In this document: in pieces, positions 45,330-55,873 of the stretch
How the letters are laid out: each line of letters opens with the position of its first letter
Position numbering within the stretch: the stretch's first letter is position 1
Source of the DNA: Rhodopirellula sp.
GTDB taxonomy: Bacteria > Planctomycetota > Planctomycetia > Pirellulales > Pirellulaceae
DNA length: 64,000 nt
Reading direction: 5' to 3'
Assembly: GCA_002701385.1 (NCBI GenBank)
Contig: NZVD01000057.1
Span: 177,089-241,088, forward strand
The notes under the pieces: model-generated
Seen by the model: only the letters and a program-made list of their open reading frames with translations
What the model was told of the DNA's origin: nothing
Database searches by the model: none
Position numbers and translations under genes: made by a program

Positions 45330-45414
45330 GAGCGTAACTATACGAAGAATTGATGGGGTAAGGGAAGACGGGTAAACCATCTGACAATGATCTATTCAGT
45401 CATATACAAAACAA

Positions 45415-45498
45415 AATGTGACATGTCCCAATGATCTTTTAAATCATTGTTACATGTCACATTAAATTTTTGGCTAAATGGTTGAATGCTTAACCATT
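45415..45498 (-). terminator. Long hairpin and second stem between the pseudopilin gene and scpB
   Basis: A 21-bp stem with two mismatched central pairs (AATGTGACATGT and CAATGAT arms, 7-base loop) spans 45415-45463, followed on the minus strand by TTTTGTTTTGTAT. A second stem, AATGGTT with AACCATT, lies at 45477-45498. They follow the stop of the pseudopilin gene by 60-95 bp and precede scpB. A strong terminator isolating scpB from the metal island is the simplest reading. Confidence 0.6.
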
Positions 45499-45559: not shown

Positions 45560-46459
45560 TTAGTGCTCGTGACTGTGACCGCCGCCTTGGAATAATGCAA
45601 ACTCTGCATCCGATTCATCACCATTAGGGCAGACAACGCCAACAAACTTAGCAGGTTCGACTGAAATATCAATCAATACGATATATCGATTATAAGTACC
45701 TCTTCCAGCTGCCCCGTGAAAAGGAGCATCGGTTAGATTGGTAAAAACTCCATCCCCACACAAAGAGCATAAGTCACCAACACCAAAAGCAATTAAAACA
45801 GAAGTAGCTTCTCCTCCAACTGCAATATTATTTTCACCATTCGTTCCTGCTATCCATCGTGCCATTGGTACCGCAGTACCAGCTGCCAGCGATACGTGAA
45901 AACCGCGTCCGTTGTTAGCAGTAGCACCGGCTTCTGGCATTTCAAAAGCATCACCAGGAATCTCAATTTCATCAATGCTTCCTACTTGAGCCTTCGTTGT
46001 TCCATCGGGAGCAAAGATATCCAACGTGTGAGGGCCATCACCTTCCGCATTCCCTTTCGCATCCACATATCGGATCTCGCCGATGCCGGCATCAAGCAAC
46101 GGTTCTGGATCAAGTTCCACGACCTCTAATTTAGCAGCTAAAGAGGCACTAACGATATCCAGCATCTCTGGAGCGGAGACATCTACAGCATGCGTATCAG
46201 GAGCTTCCGCTGTTGGTGTGGTTGGAGTTCCGGCAATCAAAGAATCCAGTTGACCCGGCAATGCACTTTCAGTAGACGCATAAACGTTAACAGCATTCTT
46301 TATAGCTTGCATTGTGTGTACGGAAGTTCCAGTCGCGGCTTTAGTCGAGAGGCCTCCATAGTTGGTAATAATAGCACCACCGACAATTGCCAACATGGCA
46401 ACGACCATCAGTACTTCTAGTAATGTAAAACCTAGTTGTTTACGATTTGTATATTTCAT
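45560..46459 (-). CDS. Type II secretion/pilus pseudopilin-like protein with Cys pair and His-rich tail
   Basis: A 299-residue protein with a type IV prepilin N-terminus: short basic leader, cleavage between Gly10 and Phe11, Glu15 at the conserved fifth position, then a hydrophobic helix (GFTLLEVLMVVAMLAIVGGA). The large C-terminal domain is acidic and carries CSLC at 231-234, another Cys at 277, and a terminal GGGHSHEH that should bind zinc or copper. No pilus assembly genes are nearby. It would be exported through a chromosomal type II/IV system elsewhere. It is next to metal-related genes and shares the HSHEH motif with the lipoprotein at 49891. Confidence 0.78.
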   Translation of the reverse strand: MKYTNRKQLGFTLLEVLMVVAMLAIVGGAIITNYGGLSTKAATGTSVHTMQAIKNAVNVYASTESALPGQLDSLIAGTPTTPTAEAPDTHAVDVSAPEMLDIVSASLAAKLEVVELDPEPLLDAGIGEIRYVDAKGNAEGDGPHTLDIFAPDGTTKAQVGSIDEIEIPGDAFEMPEAGATANNGRGFHVSLAAGTAVPMARWIAGTNGENNIAVGGEATSVLIAFGVGDLCSLCGDGVFTNLTDAPFHGAAGRGTYNRYIVLIDISVEPAKFVGVVCPNGDESDAEFALFQGGGHSHEH

Positions 46460-46597: not shown

Positions 46598-47017
46598 TTA
46601 TGACGACTGCAACAAAACCGATGGCGGGCCACGAGCCAAAAAGAAAGAGGCGTTCCGTTGTTCAGATAAGTCAGATAAAGCAAGCGAGACTAAGCAGGGG
46701 AGTTCGTCACTCAGGCTTAGAGTGAAACTCAAAGCAGGATGACTTGTCTGTCCAAGTGTAAGGCAAGTAGAGCAGTCCGAGGTAATAAGGCCTGCGATAT
46801 CTTCGATATAGAAGACTTTCGATTCGATGTTGGACTCTTCAGCATCATGCTGGCACTGAGCGTGGTCACTATCAGGCGAGGATGCAGTCTGAGGGTGGGC
46901 ACAGTACCTAACATGGGCATGCAAGCAATATCGTCCATGGATAGCACTTCCACAGACGAAGAGCAGGACATAGATCAAGATTAATGAGGCTGGAAGCAGC
47001 TTTGGGAATTTGTTCAT
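46598..47017 (-). CDS. Small secreted Cys/His-rich protein, DUF2946-like
   Basis: A 139-residue predicted exported protein. The ATG at 47017, 10 bases after the MerC stop, is preferred to 47071, as it gives a signal peptide (NKFPKLLPASLILIYVLLFV). The mature part has Cys/His-rich stretches (RYCLHAHVRYCAH, HAQCQHD), a CSTCLTLGQ motif and, near the C-terminus, RGPPSV. The CxxC with a late RAPP-like motif recalls DUF2946 proteins, which are often near copper or zinc genes. It shares CxxCxxLGQ and R(A/G)PPSV with the protein at 55472-55873. It probably binds a metal ion in the periplasm. Confidence 0.65.
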   Translation of the reverse strand: MNKFPKLLPASLILIYVLLFVCGSAIHGRYCLHAHVRYCAHPQTASSPDSDHAQCQHDAEESNIESKVFYIEDIAGLITSDCSTCLTLGQTSHPALSFTLSLSDELPCLVSLALSDLSEQRNASFFLARGPPSVLLQSS

Positions 47018-47027
47018 GAGAGGTCGG

Positions 47028-47582
47028 CTATTCCACCTTCCCCAATGAACAACAGTTACAGTCGTGCCCAAACTTTTTATTCAGAAGATGACCAACAACC
47101 AAAAGCACTCCACCTATCGGTGTTATCCACAATCCGAATTGCGCAAGAAAAGCTTCAATTCCACTCGTTTCATCATCCTCTGAGATAACTACCTGAAATG
47201 CTGTCTCGCTTTCATTTTCACATTCATCGATACAGCAAGCTGGCAAGGTTTCACCCTCTTTTGGAAGCGCACAACAATCATCTTCAACACCGAATGCTGC
47301 AACGCTAATAAACATAAGTCCAAAGACACCGAATAGAACCGGCGTCAATTTTTTATGCTGTTTCAAGCCGGGGATAAACGCATAAAGGGCAATTGTAAAA
47401 CAGACAAAGACCATCACTTTATGGAAGAATTCATCGGCCAGAAAACCCAAACCCAGAGCAGGCAAATAGGACACAATAAACGGCATAATCGCGCAGTGAA
47501 TTGCGCAGGCAACCGAGGCGATAATTCCCAGCCAGTCCCTTCGGGTTGTTAATTTCTTAGATTGAGGGGTCGACGAGACCAA
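47028..47582 (-). CDS. MerC-domain inner-membrane protein
   Basis: A 184-residue membrane protein with about four helices. The MerC signature is clear: VACAIHCAIMPFIVSYLP, with Cys26 and Cys30 in the first helix, and further His/Cys. Two extra Cys pairs sit in the central loop (CC at 103-104 and 116-117, Cys121) and the C-terminus ends HDCNCCSLG, suggesting metal chelation. MerC proteins move mercury in mer operons, but chromosomal versions are often under Zur and thought to serve zinc. The TTG start at 47582 is supported by AAGGA ten bases upstream. It is divergent from the Fur-family gene across a dyad. Confidence 0.83.
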   Translation of the reverse strand: MVSSTPQSKKLTTRRDWLGIIASVACAIHCAIMPFIVSYLPALGLGFLADEFFHKVMVFVCFTIALYAFIPGLKQHKKLTPVLFGVFGLMFISVAAFGVEDDCCALPKEGETLPACCIDECENESETAFQVVISEDDETSGIEAFLAQFGLWITPIGGVLLVVGHLLNKKFGHDCNCCSLGKVE

Positions 47583-47677: not shown

Positions 47678-47704
47678 TCCAGATGCAATTGAGTTGCATA
47701 TGGA
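47678..47704. promoter_or_regulatory. Dyad in divergent promoter region, probable Fur/Zur operator
   Basis: A 27-bp near-perfect dyad: arms TCCAGATGCAA and TTGCATATGGA around spacer TTGAG, 10 of 11 positions symmetric, core ATGCAA-N5-TTGCAT exact. It overlaps the probable -35 (TTGAGT) of the Fur-family gene, whose -10-like TATTTT is 17 bp on. It also lies just upstream of a TACAAT -10 on the other strand for the MerC gene. Fur-family sites are AT-rich palindromes of this size, so self-regulation and control of merC are likely. Confidence 0.6.
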
Positions 47705-47808: not shown

Positions 47809-48231
47809 ATGAACGACTTTAGTCCTGCAGTTATGAAAACCCTGCTAAAACAAGCGGGTCTGCGTGCCACGCCAGCACGTATTGCAACTCTTACTTTGTT
47901 GTCGCAGTCTTCCAAGCCTCTATCACATGCAGAAGTTTCTGCTGAGCTTAAGAATTTAGGAGTCGATAAGACGACGGTCTATCGCAACCTGAACGACTTA
48001 GTCGGTGCAAATTTATTAAGGCGTGCAGAATTGGGGGATCATATCTGGAGATTTGAATTGGCCAATCATCACGATGAAGCCTGTTCACTCCACCCGCACT
48101 TCGTCTGTATTGATTGCGGTGATGTCTTCTGCATCGATGAGAAGTATTTACAGGCGAGGGACTTCCAACTGGAAAACCAAAACGTGACGGTCAAGGAAAT
48201 ATTAGTCCGTGGTCACTGCAATAACTGTTGA
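47809..48231 (+). CDS. Fur-family metalloregulator (Zur/PerR-like)
   Basis: A 140-residue metal-sensing repressor. The winged-helix domain runs through RATPARIATLTLLSQSSKPLSHAEV and VDKTTVYRNLNDLV (the recognition helix). The metal and dimer domain has HIWRFEL, HHDEACSLHPHFVC and two CxxC pairs (Cys100/103 and Cys137/140) forming the structural zinc site. His residues 78, 87, 88, 95 and 97 could make the sensory site. Whether it senses zinc, iron or peroxide cannot be proved from sequence. Zinc is favoured by the MerC and His-rich neighbours. The gene is alone on the plus strand in this island. Confidence 0.88.
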   Translation: MNDFSPAVMKTLLKQAGLRATPARIATLTLLSQSSKPLSHAEVSAELKNLGVDKTTVYRNLNDLVGANLLRRAELGDHIWRFELANHHDEACSLHPHFVCIDCGDVFCIDEKYLQARDFQLENQNVTVKEILVRGHCNNC

Positions 48232-48283: not shown

Positions 48284-49894
48284 TCATCGACTTGACCGAA
48301 ATTCTTCGCGGCACTTCCGATGGACTGACTCCACAAAGTTAATCAGCATTTTTGCTTCCTGATGCTTACCTTCCACTAGTGTCCTTTCAATAACTTTCAA
48401 TCCATAAAGTACTTCTTGTACACTTTCTCGTTGCGAGTCGCTTACGTCTCCGCTTCGTATCAGTAAGCTGGTGGGTAGTTTTTCAACTCGTAACTTCCAT
48501 TGAGCAGATCGACGACGGGTTTCCTCGAGATCCGCTTCATTTATAGCTGAATAGAGTTCGACCCGGATTCCGGTTATTTCGTCCAGCACTTCATCCGGTG
48601 TCGGATAAAACATATACAATCCGAGCACCGCAAATACCAAAACACCGAATACTCCTGCGCAAATCAACTGATTTGACGACAAAACAAGATCCCATTTCTT
48701 ATTAGTTCCGTCTAAGGCTTGCTCTGGCTTGTCGACGAGGAATCTCGACATGTCAATTCGCTCACCAAGTAAAGTTAAGGCAGTTCCTGTTAGCATCACA
48801 ATGGCAAGCAGTCCCAATCCATATTTTTCATCGATGCGCATCTCTTTTTCAACGCGATTGGCGACCCAGCTAATATTTGCTTGATTCGGTCCAATTTGAT
48901 GTAAACGAGTGAATGGATCAAAGGCGTGAGTATGATCGGCAACAGTCGCCTGACCATCCGCAATCGTTCTATCTGCAGTAAGTCCGATTACTAATGTCGA
49001 TCCTATTAATAGTGCAACAAATAGGGCTACGGCTCGCCCCCCATAAGCGCGTCGCAACCAGTTTGCAACGCCAACATTTGCACCGGCGCCGAGGATGATC
49101 AGGGCGAAGGCTGCGCCTAAGGAGTAACCATCCTGAACGATATGGCCGAAATGCATCATGACGTCGGTTGGCGTCACATAGCAAGGAATCGCTACCACTC
49201 CCATGACAATTGGTGCGAGAGGATTGTCACGAGTTAATCCGGTTTGCAAAACGCCGTGAGGTAGGAAAGCCCCCAGGAAGCCAACGGCCAGTAGTGCCAA
49301 GCCATAATCAATGAAAGCCGGACCGACAAGACTCCGTGACGCGGCATCACCGGCGATCGCAAGCCGAGCGACGCCATATCGAGGGACCTTTTCTTTCTCT
49401 GTAGATTCAGTATCGTATTTACGGGAAATCAACCGATTCCAGAGCGCGCCAATTCCTATGGAAACAACGAAAGTTCCGATGGCGAAATAACCCAGCGTGC
49501 CAACCGCAATATGGCTTAAGCCATAGATAATTGAAACCGGATTCAACACGGGCGCGACTAAGACGAAACTTAAGATCGTACCACTTGGGACTTTTGCCCG
49601 CTGAAGCTCTCGGGCGACAGGTAGTGCACCAAGAGAACAGATTGGAAGTAAGATCCCCAGTACCCAGGCCCGAAATGGCCCGGACCAATGTCCGACACCT
49701 AGCATTCGCCGTAAACGATCCGGACCGACCATTCCTCGCATTAACCCAGCAACAACCGCACCGGCCACTAAAAAAGGAGCCGCAGCTACTAACGCTTCCG
49801 AAATACGCAGCACGGCGCTCCAAAAAGTCGTATCAAAATCCGAAAATAGCGACGTGTAACCAGGACCATCAGCGAATAGCGTCCAGGTGCTCAT
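48284..49894 (-). CDS. Permease of the ArsP/DUF318 family
   Basis: A 536-residue inner-membrane transporter with ten or so helices in two halves. The core motif LPICSLGALPVARELQRAKVP and SFVLVAPVLNPVSIIYGL place it in the family of PF03773 permeases, which includes arsenic (ArsP) and proposed copper/zinc exporters. A hydrophilic loop with HTHAFDPFTRLHQIG joins the halves, and the C-terminal ~110 residues are soluble and charged, an extension not usual in the family. The substrate is probably a metal ion. The start ATG overlaps the stop of the His-rich lipoprotein by 4 bp, so the two are a unit. Confidence 0.82.
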   Translation of the reverse strand: MSTWTLFADGPGYTSLFSDFDTTFWSAVLRISEALVAAAPFLVAGAVVAGLMRGMVGPDRLRRMLGVGHWSGPFRAWVLGILLPICSLGALPVARELQRAKVPSGTILSFVLVAPVLNPVSIIYGLSHIAVGTLGYFAIGTFVVSIGIGALWNRLISRKYDTESTEKEKVPRYGVARLAIAGDAASRSLVGPAFIDYGLALLAVGFLGAFLPHGVLQTGLTRDNPLAPIVMGVVAIPCYVTPTDVMMHFGHIVQDGYSLGAAFALIILGAGANVGVANWLRRAYGGRAVALFVALLIGSTLVIGLTADRTIADGQATVADHTHAFDPFTRLHQIGPNQANISWVANRVEKEMRIDEKYGLGLLAIVMLTGTALTLLGERIDMSRFLVDKPEQALDGTNKKWDLVLSSNQLICAGVFGVLVFAVLGLYMFYPTPDEVLDEITGIRVELYSAINEADLEETRRRSAQWKLRVEKLPTSLLIRSGDVSDSQRESVQEVLYGLKVIERTLVEGKHQEAKMLINFVESVHRKCREEFRSSR

Positions 49895-50520
49895 TTTGCA
49901 TTCCCATCAGTTAATTTCTCGTCCCCTGATTCCTCCGAGGAGGGAGCTCCAGATTGGCTAGACACTCCGGAATCCGGTGCCGAACTGGATTTAACCTTAA
50001 AAGAAAAACTCATCCGTTCTCCTCCCAGCGTCATTTTAGGTATCACCACGGAGAAGGATCCCCCGACTTCGAATTCCGTTGGCAAGGAAGCCGAAAAAAT
50101 TGGCACCGATATCTCCTCACTCTCTTCCAAATACTTAAAGTACACTTCTCTCGCAGCTCCTCCTAGGTGCTCCTCATCGGTGAAGTACGCCAGAATTTCT
50201 GGTTCTTTTGACACCGCTGGCTTCGAGGTTCCGGCTTCATCTTCAACACTCAGATAAAAACGTATTGAGTCGTCCTGGCCGGGTAATATTTCAGCGAAAT
50301 AAAACAGCAGACCGTTCGGATTGTGTGCATGGCCAACCTCGACCATCTGTCCACCCAAAATAGGTTCACCATGCTGGTGTCCGTGATCATGAGCGTGCTC
50401 ATGAGAGTGAGAGTCATCATGATGAGAATCTGAATCAACAGGCTCACAACCAGTGAACAATACAATTAATACGAGCCACGTGGAAACCGCTTGGAATAAG
50501 CGAGAACAACTCAGATTCAT
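49891..50520 (-). CDS. His-rich lipoprotein, probable metal-binding partner of the permease
   Basis: A 209-residue exported lipoprotein. The start at 50520 gives a signal ending LFTGC (lipid-bearing Cys25). Directly after it is a His-rich stretch, residues 33-50 (HHDD, HSHEHAHDHGHQHG), a typical zinc/copper/nickel chelating tail. The rest is a beta-rich domain (VEVGHAHNPNGLLFYFAEI to GGSFSVVIPKMTLGGERMSFSFKV) and a Ser-rich disordered end. It overlaps the permease gene by 4 bp and begins 10 bp after the MoxR gene, so it seems to be expressed with both. It could deliver or sequester metal at the outer side of the membrane. Confidence 0.78.
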   Translation of the reverse strand: MNLSCSRLFQAVSTWLVLIVLFTGCEPVDSDSHHDDSHSHEHAHDHGHQHGEPILGGQMVEVGHAHNPNGLLFYFAEILPGQDDSIRFYLSVEDEAGTSKPAVSKEPEILAYFTDEEHLGGAAREVYFKYLEESEEISVPIFSASLPTEFEVGGSFSVVIPKMTLGGERMSFSFKVKSSSAPDSGVSSQSGAPSSEESGDEKLTDGNAK

Positions 50521-50530
50521 AGTGAATTCC

Positions 50531-51511
50531 TTATGAAGCATTTGTACTTAGTAGCGGGACAGTAACAGAGTCTACAATTTCAGCAACAATTCTGCGAGTC
50601 GAATCCAAATCGCCGCCCATTCTCACATCCAATACTGGTAACGCGACTTCCTGAACATCATCGGGAGTCACAAAATCCCTACCTTTTAAATGCGCAAACG
50701 CCTGAGCTACCCTTTGCCAGGTAATCAATCCTCGAGGGCTTAATCCAAGCGACATATCCGGATGAGCCCGGGTGGCAGCAGCCAGATCCACTAAGTATTC
50801 ACGAACTGGTTCGGCAACAACAACTTCTGCTACGTGTTGTTGCAACTTGCTCAAACGGGAAGGATCCAGGATCGGCTGATCGTCTTGAGCCGCACTTTCC
50901 TTTGCACCGATATTTGAAGCTAAGATTTCCACCTCGTCATTTCGATTTGGGTAACCGATGCGAAGTTTCATCGCAAAGCGATCCAACTGAGCCTCCGGTA
51001 GCGGATAGGCTCCGTGCATTTCCACCGGGTTCTGAGTCGCGACAACAAAAAATGAATCGGAGAGTTTATGGCGTGTATTATCGATCGTAACCTGGCGTTC
51101 TGCCATTGCTTCGAACAAGGCACTTTGGGTACGAGGAGTCGTTCGATTGATTTCATCTGCTAATAGGACGTCTGAGAATACCGGGCCCTCCATAAACTCA
51201 AAGATCCGATCTCTTTGATTAAACACATTGAAGCCTGTAATGTCACTTGGCAACAGGTCCGGAGTACATTGCACGCGGGCAAACTTTCCCCCAACGGCGA
51301 GGGCTACTGCTTTAGCCAACGTAGTCTTCCCCAAGCCCGGGAGGTCGTCAAAAAGAATATGGCCACGTGCAAGCAAGCAAACCAACACCAATTCAACGAC
51401 ATTTTCTTTCCCTAACAGTGTTGCATTAAGCCTCGAGCGCAAGTGGTCTATTGCCTGTTGATGTTCACAGACCGGATTGATCGCGGGTTCGGTTTCTTCA
51501 TTACTCGTCAT
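50531..51511 (-). CDS. MoxR-family AAA+ ATPase
   Basis: A 326-residue AAA+ ATPase of the MoxR group, thought to act as a chaperone in activating or assembling metal- or cofactor-containing complexes. Walker A is DLPGLGKTTLAKA, Walker B VLLADEINR, sensor 1 VVATQNPVE, then GAYPLPEAQLDRF and the arginine-bearing LGLSPRGL near the end. It lies 20 bp downstream of the transglutaminase-like gene and next to the DUF58 gene, the usual trio. The gene order here (DUF58, transglutaminase, MoxR) is the reverse of the common one. It is followed 10 bp later by the His-rich lipoprotein. Confidence 0.93.
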   Translation of the reverse strand: MTSNEETEPAINPVCEHQQAIDHLRSRLNATLLGKENVVELVLVCLLARGHILFDDLPGLGKTTLAKAVALAVGGKFARVQCTPDLLPSDITGFNVFNQRDRIFEFMEGPVFSDVLLADEINRTTPRTQSALFEAMAERQVTIDNTRHKLSDSFFVVATQNPVEMHGAYPLPEAQLDRFAMKLRIGYPNRNDEVEILASNIGAKESAAQDDQPILDPSRLSKLQQHVAEVVVAEPVREYLVDLAAATRAHPDMSLGLSPRGLITWQRVAQAFAHLKGRDFVTPDDVQEVALPVLDVRMGGDLDSTRRIVAEIVDSVTVPLLSTNAS

Positions 51512-51531
51512 ATATTGCTCAACCTATTTTT

Positions 51532-53910
51532 TTATTTGCCAATATTGGATTTAGGATCTAAGTCGCGTTTAGACCTTTTCATTTTTCGTGATGTCCAGGA
51601 ACTAAGCAGCTTGAAACAAGCCGCATACATGCCCATCTGGGCCGGGACTGTCTGATTACTTACTGTTAACGCTGGTCCATAGAATGCCTGATCTGCCAAT
51701 GCAATCACTTGCTCTAAAGGTCCGCAATTCATATGTAAACTGGGTTCGCCTTCAGCCAGTGCCAAATACCATTTTGATAGAGTCTTCGAGTCTGGTCGTT
51801 GCTGCCCTGCCATTCGAGCTCTAAATTCTAAAATTCTAATCGTCCAGATTATTCGTCTACGACTTGTACCAAACCAACAGATTCTCCATAACGCAAACGA
51901 GCCAATGTCAATTATTCTATGCCTCAATCTATAGAGAAAAGTCAATCCTATCGCCACGCTTAAAAGCACACTCCAGTTCGACTGAACCCAACTCCAAAAA
52001 GACGTCCAGGCCATCGATAAATACTCCTGCCAGGTCAACCAGTTTTTAGGATCTTGATAGTCTGGCGTAGGTTCAATGGGTATCCAGACATTTTGCCCCA
52101 CATGTACTTCCGTCCAGAAATGTAGATTTTCAGAGTTAATAATGGACTGTCTGGATTGCGAATCAAAATCTCGCGAATCTGCATAAAATCCAAGAACAAG
52201 CTGAGCTTCATACCCTAAAGAACGAAGCATCTGGGTAGCGGCCGAGGCAAACATATAGTCGGGCCCACGTTTAATCTTTAAAAAGTGATCCACGACATTC
52301 TGACAATCCTCCGGAGCTGTTTCGAGGCGGTCGTGCTTATACTGACTACGTAGATTCTGAGTGAGGGCCACTACCTGCTCCCACCCAGGGCGACTATTAG
52401 CGGTCCAACGACGGGCAAGGCTCTCTGCCCGCTTCCCTGGTCGAATCGAACTGTTAAGGGACTCTTCTACTCTACGAGAATATACTCCTCGAAAATCACC
52501 CAGTTTGGTCAGTTCACTTATCGAATGCGTCTGAGAAATGAGGTGGATCACTGTCAGTCTTGGAATAAATTCCTGTGCAGCCAGTTCAAGAACACCATCA
52601 CGTCCGGTCGTATAAAAACTGTCACGATCGACATCTGCAATGTGAATCCCAGACACATGCGCTGGACTGGGAATTTGTTTCGACTTTAGATTGATGATTC
52701 GCAGAGTACTTCGCTGTTTACCTCGCAAAACATCCGTTTCATTACGCTGGAACTTCACCCAGGGCTTTCCATTAACAGAGGTAATAGAAGTGCGAAATGG
52801 TATCGAATTGCTGCCACTGTGTGTCCAATCAACACCATCAAACGTATCAAATCTTTGTGTCATCAAATGGAGCGGTGCGTCGCCAGAGACCTGAAACAAT
52901 GCCGTCGATTTACGATCCTCTGGTGTTACCGGACGTTGTTTGTTAAGCCGGCGTAATGTACTGAATTGACGAGTCGCCTGTTCTGAACTGGATTTTTTCT
53001 GATGATTGTGCCGCAAGCGATCTCCTGTTATCGCAATGGACTTATTTAGCTCTTGATTAATCTGCTTTTTGACTCGTGCCTCACCATATTGATCCGAAGC
53101 TACATCGTATAGACTGGGCATTTTCGATTCCAGAAAAATCTCCGAGTCAACCGGACCGAAACTGAAGGCGCTGTCTTCTGCTGCGATCATCATATCCCCT
53201 TCGCCGACACCAGAACGTGCATTGCCGTCCTGATATTTGTCACCTCCTGATGTGGGCATAAACCCAGACAACACCATTGCAGTACGGGGGATTCCAATGA
53301 CTGCAATACTCAGTACGCCAAGTCCCACAAGAAGTGACACCGCGATCAGGACTGGCCGCAACGGAATTTTTCTATCAGAAGACGTGGCAAATTTCGTCTC
53401 TAGGCGTGCCCAATAACTGCACATCAGCCACCATAGGCCAAGCGTGGCAAACAGGGCACTCCCTGCCCAAACCAGATAATGATCGGTCATAGAAGTAACA
53501 AACAGAACGAGAAATCCGCTCAGTAACCCAGTAATCTGAAGTGACTTTTGAGAAGCCGGAGCCGTAGCCAATACCAGAGCGACATTCTGGACAATGATTA
53601 GTAGCACGAGTTCATTCGGATCCCCGATTTCCAAAGAACGGGTGACCACTTGTACTAGCAGTGGGAAAATCACCATCACCAACTGGAGCAACAATAGACG
53701 ACGCGCGGGGGTATTGAACCTCTTTGGCCAGACCTGAAGTAAACGCCGAAGTCCGAAGACAAGCCCGAGCGTAATGATGCTCTCTGCCAGCACCACCCAA
53801 CCACTCCAGTGGTTAGCATAGCGAAAAGTCTGGGTAATCATCATTGCCAATAGAGCAAGGTGGGTTACCGAAGACTGGCCGACAAGATTATGCTGCGGAC
53901 CACGATTCAT
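51532..53910 (-). CDS. TgpA-like membrane protein with probably inactive transglutaminase domain
   Basis: A large inner-membrane protein. The ATG at 53910 (AAAGG eight bases upstream) is preferred to 53967. Several N-terminal helices (to about residue 235) precede a periplasmic transglutaminase-like domain and one C-terminal helix plus a soluble tail. In the 811-residue numbering, the region normally reading RG-x-Cys-EYFASA is RGPDYMFASA with Asp570 in place of the catalytic Cys. The His (NLHFWTEV, His616) is present and the Asp is Glu632 in WIPIEPTPDY. The protein is likely a non-enzymatic scaffold or has altered chemistry. It overlaps DUF58 by 23 bp and is 20 bp from moxR. Confidence 0.82.
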   Translation of the reverse strand: MNRGPQHNLVGQSSVTHLALLAMMITQTFRYANHWSGWVVLAESIITLGLVFGLRRLLQVWPKRFNTPARRLLLLQLVMVIFPLLVQVVTRSLEIGDPNELVLLIIVQNVALVLATAPASQKSLQITGLLSGFLVLFVTSMTDHYLVWAGSALFATLGLWWLMCSYWARLETKFATSSDRKIPLRPVLIAVSLLVGLGVLSIAVIGIPRTAMVLSGFMPTSGGDKYQDGNARSGVGEGDMMIAAEDSAFSFGPVDSEIFLESKMPSLYDVASDQYGEARVKKQINQELNKSIAITGDRLRHNHQKKSSSEQATRQFSTLRRLNKQRPVTPEDRKSTALFQVSGDAPLHLMTQRFDTFDGVDWTHSGSNSIPFRTSITSVNGKPWVKFQRNETDVLRGKQRSTLRIINLKSKQIPSPAHVSGIHIADVDRDSFYTTGRDGVLELAAQEFIPRLTVIHLISQTHSISELTKLGDFRGVYSRRVEESLNSSIRPGKRAESLARRWTANSRPGWEQVVALTQNLRSQYKHDRLETAPEDCQNVVDHFLKIKRGPDYMFASAATQMLRSLGYEAQLVLGFYADSRDFDSQSRQSIINSENLHFWTEVHVGQNVWIPIEPTPDYQDPKNWLTWQEYLSMAWTSFWSWVQSNWSVLLSVAIGLTFLYRLRHRIIDIGSFALWRICWFGTSRRRIIWTIRILEFRARMAGQQRPDSKTLSKWYLALAEGEPSLHMNCGPLEQVIALADQAFYGPALTVSNQTVPAQMGMYAACFKLLSSWTSRKMKRSKRDLDPKSNIGK

Positions 53911-55180
53911 GGCATAACCTTTCCCATTGAGTTTGAAGCTGTGAAGGAACATCGTGAGTGCAGTCAATCGTCAACCAGGAATTCTCTCCCGCGTGATGTT
54001 CCTCTGTCTGCAACACTACAAACCGCAGATTGGATTCAATGCTTTCCAATTGCTTTAATTCATCCATCCTGTCTGAAGTTGTCACTACAATTTTCATTTT
54101 GTTTGGCGTTGAGCCTTCCGAGTATAAGTCTTTGAAGCCCTCGACAGTTCCTGGTTGAAGCATTGCCAAACGATCAAATGCAGACTGAATGCAGAAAGCT
54201 CCCTGACTCGAATCTCCCCCGTTCAGGTCAGTCGAGTGAATTACACTCCAACCGTGCTCATGAAATTCCCGAACCAAACTCGCTCCCACACGAATAGCCC
54301 ATTCAAGACTGCCGTGATCACTGAGCGTCTGATGGACTCGTAGGTCTGTATCAATCACGATTTCAACCTTACGCTGTGCAGCCGTCTGCCGTTCGCAAAC
54401 AATGAGACGACTATGACGAGCCGTTTGGGCCCAATGTACATGCTTCAATGTATCGCCTCGACGATAGGGCCTAACAGCTAGCACATCCCCCTCCATACCA
54501 GCCTGATTCATCAGAATTCCAGTGGCTGTAAAATCAATCCCTTTGACAGGTGGAATTGACTTTAGCTTTACTGTAAGTGGCCAGACAATCAGCTCTGACG
54601 TAATCTGAATTATCTTCCGTGTCTTCCAAATACCAAATGGAAATGCATTGGTAATTTGGCAAACCCCGGATGGGTAAAGTCCTCTGCGATGTGGCTCAAA
54701 CTCCCACTTAAAGTCAGATTTGGTCCACCCGGGAACACGAGCCAAAGCGACGGCTGTCGAGTCGTTTGAGGTAGAAATGTCTTCTAAAAAGAATCCACCT
54801 TCGACAGCTAGGCCCCAAATTGGCCAGGGGAAAGAATTCTTTACGCTTAGAGTGACCTGAACATCATCGCCTTCTGTCGCTCGGCGACGATTGAAACACA
54901 GACTACAGCTCACACCACGAATCGCAATCCATGGCCAGACAACACCTAATAAAATCACAGCTAGCAGTGCAGTAAACATGACCCATCCCTGTGGCGCCAC
55001 AAAGAGACCAATTAATAAAGAAGCGGCCGCGGCTACTAACAACCATCCAACTGGTTGCTTAAGCCAATAGACGTATCGATTAGCCCATGGACAAAAATCT
55101 CGATTAGCGAGATTTGAAATCCACTGCACAGTACGCCGAATGGATGGAGCTGGTCGGTGCTGGTTGTTAGATGAAGACAT
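53888..55180 (-). CDS. DUF58-domain protein
   Basis: A protein of about 430 residues, starting at the ATG at 55180 (a longer frame opens at 55282). Two hydrophobic helices (about 45-90) anchor it, followed by a beta-rich region and the DUF58 domain with the motif RPYRRGDTLKHVHWAQTARHSRLIV, here split into RPYRRGDTLKHVHW and ARHSRLIV. A von Willebrand-like fold follows (KVEIVIDTDLRVHQ, with the MIDAS-like DxD). DUF58 proteins team with MoxR ATPases and transglutaminase-like proteins; function is unsettled. It overlaps the next gene by 23 bp. Confidence 0.82.
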   Translation of the reverse strand: MSSSNNQHRPAPSIRRTVQWISNLANRDFCPWANRYVYWLKQPVGWLLVAAAASLLIGLFVAPQGWVMFTALLAVILLGVVWPWIAIRGVSCSLCFNRRRATEGDDVQVTLSVKNSFPWPIWGLAVEGGFFLEDISTSNDSTAVALARVPGWTKSDFKWEFEPHRRGLYPSGVCQITNAFPFGIWKTRKIIQITSELIVWPLTVKLKSIPPVKGIDFTATGILMNQAGMEGDVLAVRPYRRGDTLKHVHWAQTARHSRLIVCERQTAAQRKVEIVIDTDLRVHQTLSDHGSLEWAIRVGASLVREFHEHGWSVIHSTDLNGGDSSQGAFCIQSAFDRLAMLQPGTVEGFKDLYSEGSTPNKMKIVVTTSDRMDELKQLESIESNLRFVVLQTEEHHAGENSWLTIDCTHDVPSQLQTQWERLCHESWSAA

Positions 55181-55471
55181 ACGTCTCGCATGATAAAGAT
55201 GAGTCGCAACTGGATAACTGGCTCTGTCTGGCAAGCCACCTAAGAATAGAAAAGTAGAGGGACAATTTAATTCCAATCGCACAAATAGAATTGTGCAATC
55301 TTACATTCAGGACAGAATGACGTACGAGTCTTATGATGCTTCATGACAACAGCTTACTTAGACAAACTGTAAGACTTACATCAGACTAAGTATCGCCTAA
55401 CCAAGTCCTGTCTAACGACGGCAAGCACCAAGAAGTCACACTAAAGAAAATCTCTCTCTACTGCAAGGAGC

Positions 55472-55873
55472 TTAAGCTACCGACGGAGGGGCTCGCTCTT
55501 GAACGCCGTCCCGAGTAATAGCAAGATACAGCGCACTAGGAGAATCACTAAAGAGTGGAATCGACTCGCAAGAGGCGGAAATTTCAATTGTAACGGCCTG
55601 ATCCTGAGCCTGCCCCAATTCCTGACAGACATAGCAGTTTGCAGAATCATGTTGGTGGTCTTGGCGACTAGGGTCTGATTCCGTGCTTTGCTCGTTCAGT
55701 AGATTGTCACACGGATGATGGTGAGCCGCAGAGCAACTAGAAACATGCTCGTTTCGAGAACTCTTCGAGTGACCAGAACAACATGCGGCCAAATGCAGCG
55801 CTTCACCGAACAAAACACGCCCAATATAGACGATCAGCAATGTTGTCAGAAAAAGTAGCTGCTTACGTTGCAT
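55472..55873 (-). CDS. Small secreted Cys/His-rich protein, DUF2946-like (paralogue of the 46598 gene)
   Basis: A 133-residue exported protein. A hydrophobic signal (KQLLFLTTLLIVYIGRVLFG) is followed by ALHLAACCSGH, SSCSAAHHHPCD, a QDHQHD stretch and the motif CYVCQELGQ. The end reads RAPPSVA. The CxxCxxLGQ and R(A/G)PPSV motifs are shared with the protein at 46598-47017, and both have the same size and plan, so they are paralogues. Metal binding in the periplasm is likely. Its gene lies 189 bp upstream of the DUF58 trio on the same strand and 184 bp from the sugar cluster. An inverted repeat lies just upstream. Confidence 0.66.
   Translation of the reverse strand: MQRKQLLFLTTLLIVYIGRVLFGEALHLAACCSGHSKSSRNEHVSSCSAAHHHPCDNLLNEQSTESDPSRQDHQHDSANCYVCQELGQAQDQAVTIEISASCESIPLFSDSPSALYLAITRDGVQERAPPSVA

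Follow-up and report, generated by a model that had tools for sequence, protein, structure and literature searches.

A histidine-tailed type IV pilin-like protein in a putative zinc-regulated locus of Pirellulaceae

Background

Why should a protein with the export signal of a type IV pilin end in a cluster of histidines and be encoded among metal-handling genes? The question is raised by one gene in the window, i.e. the whole stretch of 64,000 nucleotides of Rhodopirellula sp. DNA analysed here. Pilins have been connected with metals before. PilA (PilA1) of Synechocystis was given a role in iron acquisition (PMC4144903), PilA was tied to manganese acquisition (PMC5634550), and PilA2 of Legionella was reported to act in iron acquisition without the need for PilT or PilD, its gene being not markedly iron-regulated and having no Fur box (PMC13170364); a term search of the accessible part of the latter source returned neither histidine nor zinc. 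In a V. cholerae study, the zur phenotype under investigation did not depend on type IV pilin genes, among them that of the orphan pilin VC0502 (PMC8248653). Further reviews and surveys were also consulted (PMC2770081, PMC6103462 and PMC4471445).

No pilin or pseudopilin with a histidine tail in a Zur locus emerged from word searches of the open-licence PMC literature, as judged by the titles and abstract openings of the papers that they returned. Zinc-starvation loci do hold Zur-regulated, histidine-rich envelope proteins, such as those of the ZrgA and PA4063 type, and we know of no pilin among them.

Results

The tailed pilin gene

The features of the locus are collected in Table 1. The first-pass annotation had described a textbook prepilin signal in the pilin, with G/F cleavage and Glu at +5, and this was borne out by the translation, which has a short basic leader (..QLG/FTLLE..), a G10/F11 cleavage site, Glu at mature position +5 and a hydrophobic helix. 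Matches above cut-off to Pfam N_methyl PF07963 (26.8 bits, cut-off 21.2) and to NCBIfam TIGR02532 (20.5 bits, cut-off 16.3) place the protein among type IV pilin-like or prepilin proteins. On the other hand, its match to the GspG equivalog model TIGR01710 reached 24.6 bits against a cut-off of 88.85 and covered the N-terminal part only, so that it does not qualify as a GspG. The gene is an orphan within a metal locus, as it is not encoded together with PilB, PilC, PilT and a secretin.

Table 1. Coordinates of the features identified in the window
Feature	Position	Strand	Evidence or remark
C-terminal tail GGGHSHEH	45563..45586	-	HxH in 6/6 clade C-termini
His-tailed type IV prepilin / pseudopilin-like protein	45560..46459	-	299 aa, ATG start; PF07963, translation, orthologues
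C277 codon	45629..45631	-	Cys throughout the full-length tailed set (5) and in the L046 fragment; Asp in the untailed (5) and outgroup (2) sequences
H248 codon	45716..45718	-	His throughout the full-length tailed set (5/5); Tyr in the untailed (5) and outgroup (2) sequences
CSLC pair, residues 231-234	45758..45769	-	Not conserved among orthologues
Small His-rich CxxC protein ending RGPPSVLLQSS, DUF2946-like	46598..47017	-	Immediately precedes the pilin gene; start placed at an ATG, longest ORF begins at 47071
MerC-domain membrane protein, first gene of the operon	47028..47582	-	PF03203, 83.3 bits
Candidate Zur box, 17-mer WTGCAA-N5-TTGCAW	47683..47699		Divergent promoter region
Fur-family regulator, read as Zur	47809..48231	+	PF01475, 59.6 bits, cut-off 23.1
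ArsP_1 permease, relative of SaoE / SO_0444 efflux transporters	48284..49894	-	PF03773, 82.2 bits; NCBIfam below cut-off
His-rich lipoprotein-like protein with HSHEH	49891..50541	-	Sequence; weak ZrgA match, E 0.016
MoxR-type AAA ATPase	50531..51511	-	PF07726, 200.6 bits
Transglutaminase-core membrane protein	51532..53967	-	PF01841, 58.9 bits
DUF58-like protein	53888..55282	-	PF01882, 19.7 bits, below cut-off 23.4
Second DUF2946-like His-rich protein	55472..55873	-	Pfam E only 0.43

A sequence search against solved structures matched only the N-terminal part of known pilins, and Foldseek found no PDB structure with E <= 0.001 for the AF2 model of the window pilin. The model is weak (mean pLDDT 63.6, below 50 at residues 233-256 and 289-299), hence the proximity of H248, C277 and the tail to one another cannot be judged from it. 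An attempt to position a metal site in the fold was dropped for these reasons, the scores being low at both H248 and the tail.

Between the pilin and the ScpB gene, at window positions 45414-45470, nested inverted repeats were observed, with outer arms AATGTGACATGT / ACATGTCACATT and inner arms AATGAT..ATCATT. They are followed by a T-rich sequence and could possibly form a two-way terminator.

Conservation of the histidine tail

The C-terminal GGGHSHEH previously read from the window protein is present in the translation, and the HSHEH run ascribed to the neighbouring lipoprotein was found there as well, within DSHSHEHAHDHGHQHGEP (49891-50541). We searched for homologues among 98 relatives, 241 genomes of the family, 396 genomes of the order with an alignment, and GTDB contigs. 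The tailed clade was limited to two genera of one family. It comprises five full-length members (the window protein, L034, L035, L036 and L037) and two fragments: L046, which holds the C-terminus, and L044, an N-terminal piece cut by the contig end so that its tail is unreadable. The named carriers are assemblies derived from metagenomes. More distant homologues were confined, within this search, to the two genera of the family (9/241 genomes) and one genus of another family; homologues in the latter are untailed where readable, and any match at all was obtained in 8/396 genomes of the order.

All six readable C-termini of the tailed clade, i.e. those of 5/5 full-length members and of the C-terminal fragment, terminate in Gly followed by HxH or HxHxH, in the variants GGGHSHEH, GGGGHAH, GGHDHDH, SGHDHDH, AGHEH and GAGHAHEH. 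Loss of the tail from orthologues, named in the first-pass annotation as a refutation of its reading, was thus not observed. The tail is absent from the seven untailed relatives with a readable C-terminus (L038-L042, L047 and L137); an eighth, L139 from genome G272, has ambiguous C-terminal residues and was not counted. HxH is retained in tailed copies down to about 55% identity. The codons of the tail histidines vary (CAC/CAT) and the intervening residues change between copies, which fits selection on the histidines themselves.

To place this against a background, the window and 17 loci were divided into mechanical, non-overlapping ORFs with a minimum length of 120 aa, 226 in all. HxH within the last 8 residues was found in 6 of them; five are tailed pilins and the sixth is a ZigA neighbour in genome G002, leaving a background of 1/221 ORFs outside the tailed pilins. 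PF07963 is matched at 15 places of the genome that contains the window, one of which (L055) runs off its contig with an unreadable C-terminus; only one of the 14 readable proteins has the tail, so the other readable ones lack it.

Clade-specific residues

In a tree built after removing the last 8 residues of the tailed proteins, the tailed group formed a single clade with 100/100 support, and the tail was accordingly gained once on this tree. Ten positions were fixed in the clade, being present in the five full-length tailed proteins and absent from five untailed and two outgroup proteins: N55, S106, E119, G169, D229, H248, C277, G294, H295 and H297. Four of them are Cys or His (H248, C277, H295 and H297) and two more are Glu or Asp (E119 and D229). 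C277 substitutes the Asp of a D-x-R/N-G-D stretch found in the untailed pilins.

The CSLC pair, which the first-pass annotation had set beside the tail as a distinctive feature, did not stand. Its counterpart in the four other full-length tailed orthologues reads STLV, SSLI or SSLV, and L037, without the Cys pair, keeps the adjacent Fur-family gene. CSLC is thus peculiar to the window protein and was rejected as a conserved metal site. What stood of that annotation is a pilin-type protein with a conserved, probably metal-binding tail, encoded in a metal locus; the filament or tip position that it considered is conjectural. The divergent Fur-family regulator, the shared box, the untailed parent pilin at another locus and the clade-specific C277 and H248 were not part of it.

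Neighbouring genes

Read on the minus strand from 47582, the operon consists of the MerC gene, the DUF2946-like gene 10 bases further on (counted to the chosen ATG), and the pilin gene as the last one. It is divergent from the Fur-family gene, beyond which lie the ArsP_1 permease, the His-rich lipoprotein and more genes on the same strand. A DUF2946-like copy precedes the tailed pilin in 5 of the 6 readable loci (the window, L034, L035, L036 and L044); in L037, the Fur-family gene takes that place. In G008, a contig that carries a largely matching gene array also has a ZigA fragment and a flavoprotein gene.

The DUF2946-like proteins share with DUF2946 proteins their small size, richness in His and Cys and an R(G/A)PP ending. 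However, when seven copies were scanned with PF11162, only one (L036:5731-6180) exceeded the cut-off (25.7 vs 23.7 bits), most copies being too divergent for Pfam, and the window copy had no Pfam match; the partner gene here also differs in being a pilin. A DUF2946 gene is contained in the zinc-export operon czrCBA of Caulobacter, according to the part of the source available (PMC4176598).

Two peculiarities of gene content were noted besides. The MoxR, transglutaminase and DUF58-like genes run into the lipoprotein and permease genes on one strand (window 50531-55873), an unusual association of MoxR-type and metal genes, and their order is kept in L044. In G008, which has the fullest zinc array, ZigA (C5:18511-18870, L131) appears as a broken remnant that contains an in-frame TAA.

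The Fur-family regulator and its candidate box

The regulator has a Fur-family domain and reached no NCBIfam equivalog cut-off, its best score being 53.6 against 220 for a Fur model, with 20.0 against 167 for the Zur model. In its intergenic region, the palindrome TGCAA-N5-TTGCA is exact in all three genomes in which the Fur-family gene adjoins the tailed-pilin operon (window 47684, L044 8172 and L037 9116), and in L037 the first gene after the box is the tailed pilin itself. The core box occurs at 12 sites of the own genome and the reversed pattern at 3. Among the 12 are the region of the regulator itself and a site upstream of a COG0523 GTPase, which passes the ZigA model NF038288 (605.8 bits, cut-off 600) and whose orthologue in G002 also has an upstream box. 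No exact box was found at the second ZigA copies of these two genomes (L132 and L133).

A 17-mer scan of 11 genomes returned 42 sites in the forward sense, and 8 when the reversed control pattern was used. Of the 42, only 8 are linked to zinc: the regulator region of G000 (the own genome), G006 and G008, ZigA-type genes in G000, G002, G012 and G272, and the intergene between the flavoprotein and a DUF2946-like gene in G008, this flavoprotein-side site falling within a 91-aa mechanical ORF taken as spurious. Many of the other sites viewed fall inside genes, the context having been viewed for part of the 42 (22 loci, and in addition the 12 sites that the shorter pattern gives in the own genome). 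As the motif was first seen in the three regulator regions, the box probabilities calculated for these are not independent, and the ZigA sites constitute the independent evidence; those in G012 and G272 were found by scanning for the box, thus they are not an unbiased sample.

The core box was also present upstream of 2 of 4 regulator relatives in other genera (L167 and L168). Since the same box occurs at ZigA and at these relatives, the regulator is taken here for Zur, although it reaches the cut-off of no curated Zur model, and it would be expected to bind this operator ahead of zinc-homeostasis genes. ZigA itself is described, in the part of the source available, as a Zur-regulon gene of P. 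aeruginosa expressed in zinc starvation (PMC9431628). No box with up to 2 mismatches was found upstream of the DUF2946-like gene in L035 and L036; in L034 this region lies off the contig.

The regulator was detected in 3 of the 11 genomes of the two genera (G000, G006 and G008), all of which have tailed pilins. At E <= 1e-8, it was found neither in the tailed genomes G004 (69% complete) and G012 (91%) nor in six genomes of the two genera without a tailed copy; G012 has the box at ZigA all the same.

Other genes in the vicinity of ZigA and of the Zur relatives were recorded. A conserved protein with a WCWGxD motif occurs at L136:5544-6281, L135:7757-8386, L168:585-1217 and L170:2422-3102; two copies tested had no Pfam match, and the L135 copy ends in AIGVHNHE. 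At L170:660-1407 (G013), a second Fur-family gene has as neighbours an ArsR-like regulator and a short protein very rich in His. A DUF1826 partner of ZigA was not supported, as neither of the proteins tested had a Pfam match.

The untailed paralogue

The own genome encodes an untailed paralogue, 49% identical to the window pilin, as the first pilin of a locus on contig C8. This locus holds two further prepilin-type proteins, a PilT-family ATPase (TIGR01420, 419 bits, cut-off 319), a secretin (PF00263), and a GspE/PilB ATPase and a GspF/PilC protein, both under their equivalog cut-offs. The untailed paralogue resembles GspG/PulG of type II secretion systems (T2SS) in its prepilin signal and scored 30.8 bits with TIGR01710 over the N-terminal 70 residues; however, it remains below the 88.85 cut-off, is twice as long and does not match GspG in its C-terminal part. 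A canonical T2SS is encoded apart from it, on contig C69 of the same genome, where a true T2SSG, T2SSK and a further secretin were identified.

Over the first 30 mature residues, the tailed pilin is identical to the untailed one at 27 positions, compared to 20 for the second pilin of the C8 locus and 14 for the T2SS GspG, which makes co-assembly plausible. Four of the five genomes with a full-length tailed copy (G000, G006, G008 and G012) also hold the untailed pilin, and it was not seen in the 69% complete G004.

An exact zinc box was found in G000 between the first two pilins of the untailed locus, with a one-mismatch form at the same place in G002; the box was set aside as a control element of this locus, because L038-L040 have none there with up to 2 mismatches. 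A different palindrome, of the CTTATTGAAACTNAGTTTCAATAAG type, was observed ahead of the untailed locus (L041:10585 region; C8:130580-130602 in the own genome); its symmetry is perfect in L041-L043 and nearly so in L038-L040. The own genome has it nowhere else, even when 0-2 mismatches are allowed. It may be an operator of a Fur-type or another regulator. Some of the loci L038-L043 have a second palindrome, TTATTGAGAC..TCTCAATAA, upstream of the first.

Discussion

Taken together, we propose that a duplicated pilin became a zinc-binding envelope protein made under zinc starvation, and we give this reading a probability of about one half. A paralogue of the first pilin of the PilT-containing locus would have been duplicated, moved away and remodelled for zinc binding; its membrane anchor and export route would have been kept, with new metal ligands added. 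When zinc is scarce, Zur would leave the box between zur and merC and the operon of merC, the DUF2946-like gene and the pilin gene would be made. The prepilin would enter the inner membrane through its N-terminal helix, with its domain facing the periplasm, or the outside if it is part of a filament. The HxH(xH) tail, probably with C277 and H248, would then capture Zn(II) and pass it to the neighbouring His-rich and membrane proteins (DUF2946-like protein, MerC, lipoprotein and permease) for uptake. Zinc as the metal, its binding by the tail and its inward transport are all inferred here. The efflux-like permease, the DUF2946 gene of Caulobacter and the lack of the box at L035 and L036 argue against a story of uptake alone.

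Such a protein would share with Synechocystis PilA1 and Legionella PilA2, as far as these are described in the excerpts available, the property of a pilin-type protein that helps the cell to obtain a scarce metal, iron in their case. It would differ from them in that the paralogue is dedicated, has gained a His tail as well as new Cys and His residues, and belongs to a Zur-type operon. Likewise, histidine stretches in envelope proteins are shared with the ZrgA and PA4063 type; the neighbouring lipoprotein has a weak match to ZrgA.

A doubtful extension is that the PilB, PilC, PilT and secretin of the untailed locus build the tailed pilin into an extracellular filament, whose retraction by PilT imports zinc. 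It would draw on the near-identical assembly helix, on the presence in the untailed locus of PilT, the secretin and relatives of PilB/GspE and PilC/GspF, and on the untailed pilin being retained in most genomes with a full-length tailed copy; the aid that Synechocystis PilA gives to iron acquisition (PMC4144903, seen in part) would be a precedent. However, support for a filament comes from the conserved assembly helix only, the untailed locus has its own promoter palindrome and not a conserved zinc box, and the iron effect of Legionella PilA2 was independent of PilT and PilD in the part of the report available (PMC13170364). Placement of the tailed pilin in a retractable filament is possible, and slightly more doubtful still is its full form, a 'zincophore pilus', in which a His-tailed pilin induced by zinc starvation would bind zinc outside the cell and be reeled in.

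We regard it as unlikely that the locus instead guards against metal excess, with the permease exporting zinc and the His-rich proteins, including the pilin, sequestering it. The resemblance of the permease to the SO_0444 and SaoE efflux transporters, the MerC domain in the operon and the place of DUF2946 in the czr export operon of Caulobacter (PMC4176598, in part) would agree with this, but the same box precedes ZigA, a Zur-regulated gene of zinc starvation in P. aeruginosa by the accessible account (PMC9431628).

Less likely again is an alternative structural pilin that takes the place of the normal pilin, or caps it, under zinc stress; its tail and C277/H248 would bind a metal for the stability of the fold only, and no zinc uptake would take place. 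C277 replaces the Asp of the D-x-R/N-G-D stretch, and GspG requires bound Ca2+, with the coordinating aspartates of its site reported as essential in the part of the source available (PMC10574481); by analogy, the replaced Asp may belong to a Ca2+ site. However, a flexible tail with 2-3 His at the very end is hardly a fold-stabilising site, and the locus is full of other metal-handling genes. That the tail is a neutral extension without function seems barely credible, for although only six C-termini are known and they go back to a single gain, HxH persists to about 55% identity while the other tail residues change, against a background of 1/221 ORFs.

Conclusions

The links of pilins to iron and manganese acquisition rest on mutant phenotypes, and no dedicated metal-binding pilin was encountered in the literature examined. 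The sequence analysed here offers a candidate, in which potential ligands were gained on one branch and placed in a Zur-type operon, and for which the unmodified parent pilin of the same genome is a natural control. A candidate zinc-regulator box is proposed for Pirellulaceae as well. If the proposed reading is true, it would allow the carriage of metals by pilins to be tested directly, and the functions of type IV pilins would extend to zinc trafficking. Our analysis suggests that, in some Pirellulaceae, part of the pilus family may have been remodelled to catch zinc when it is scarce.
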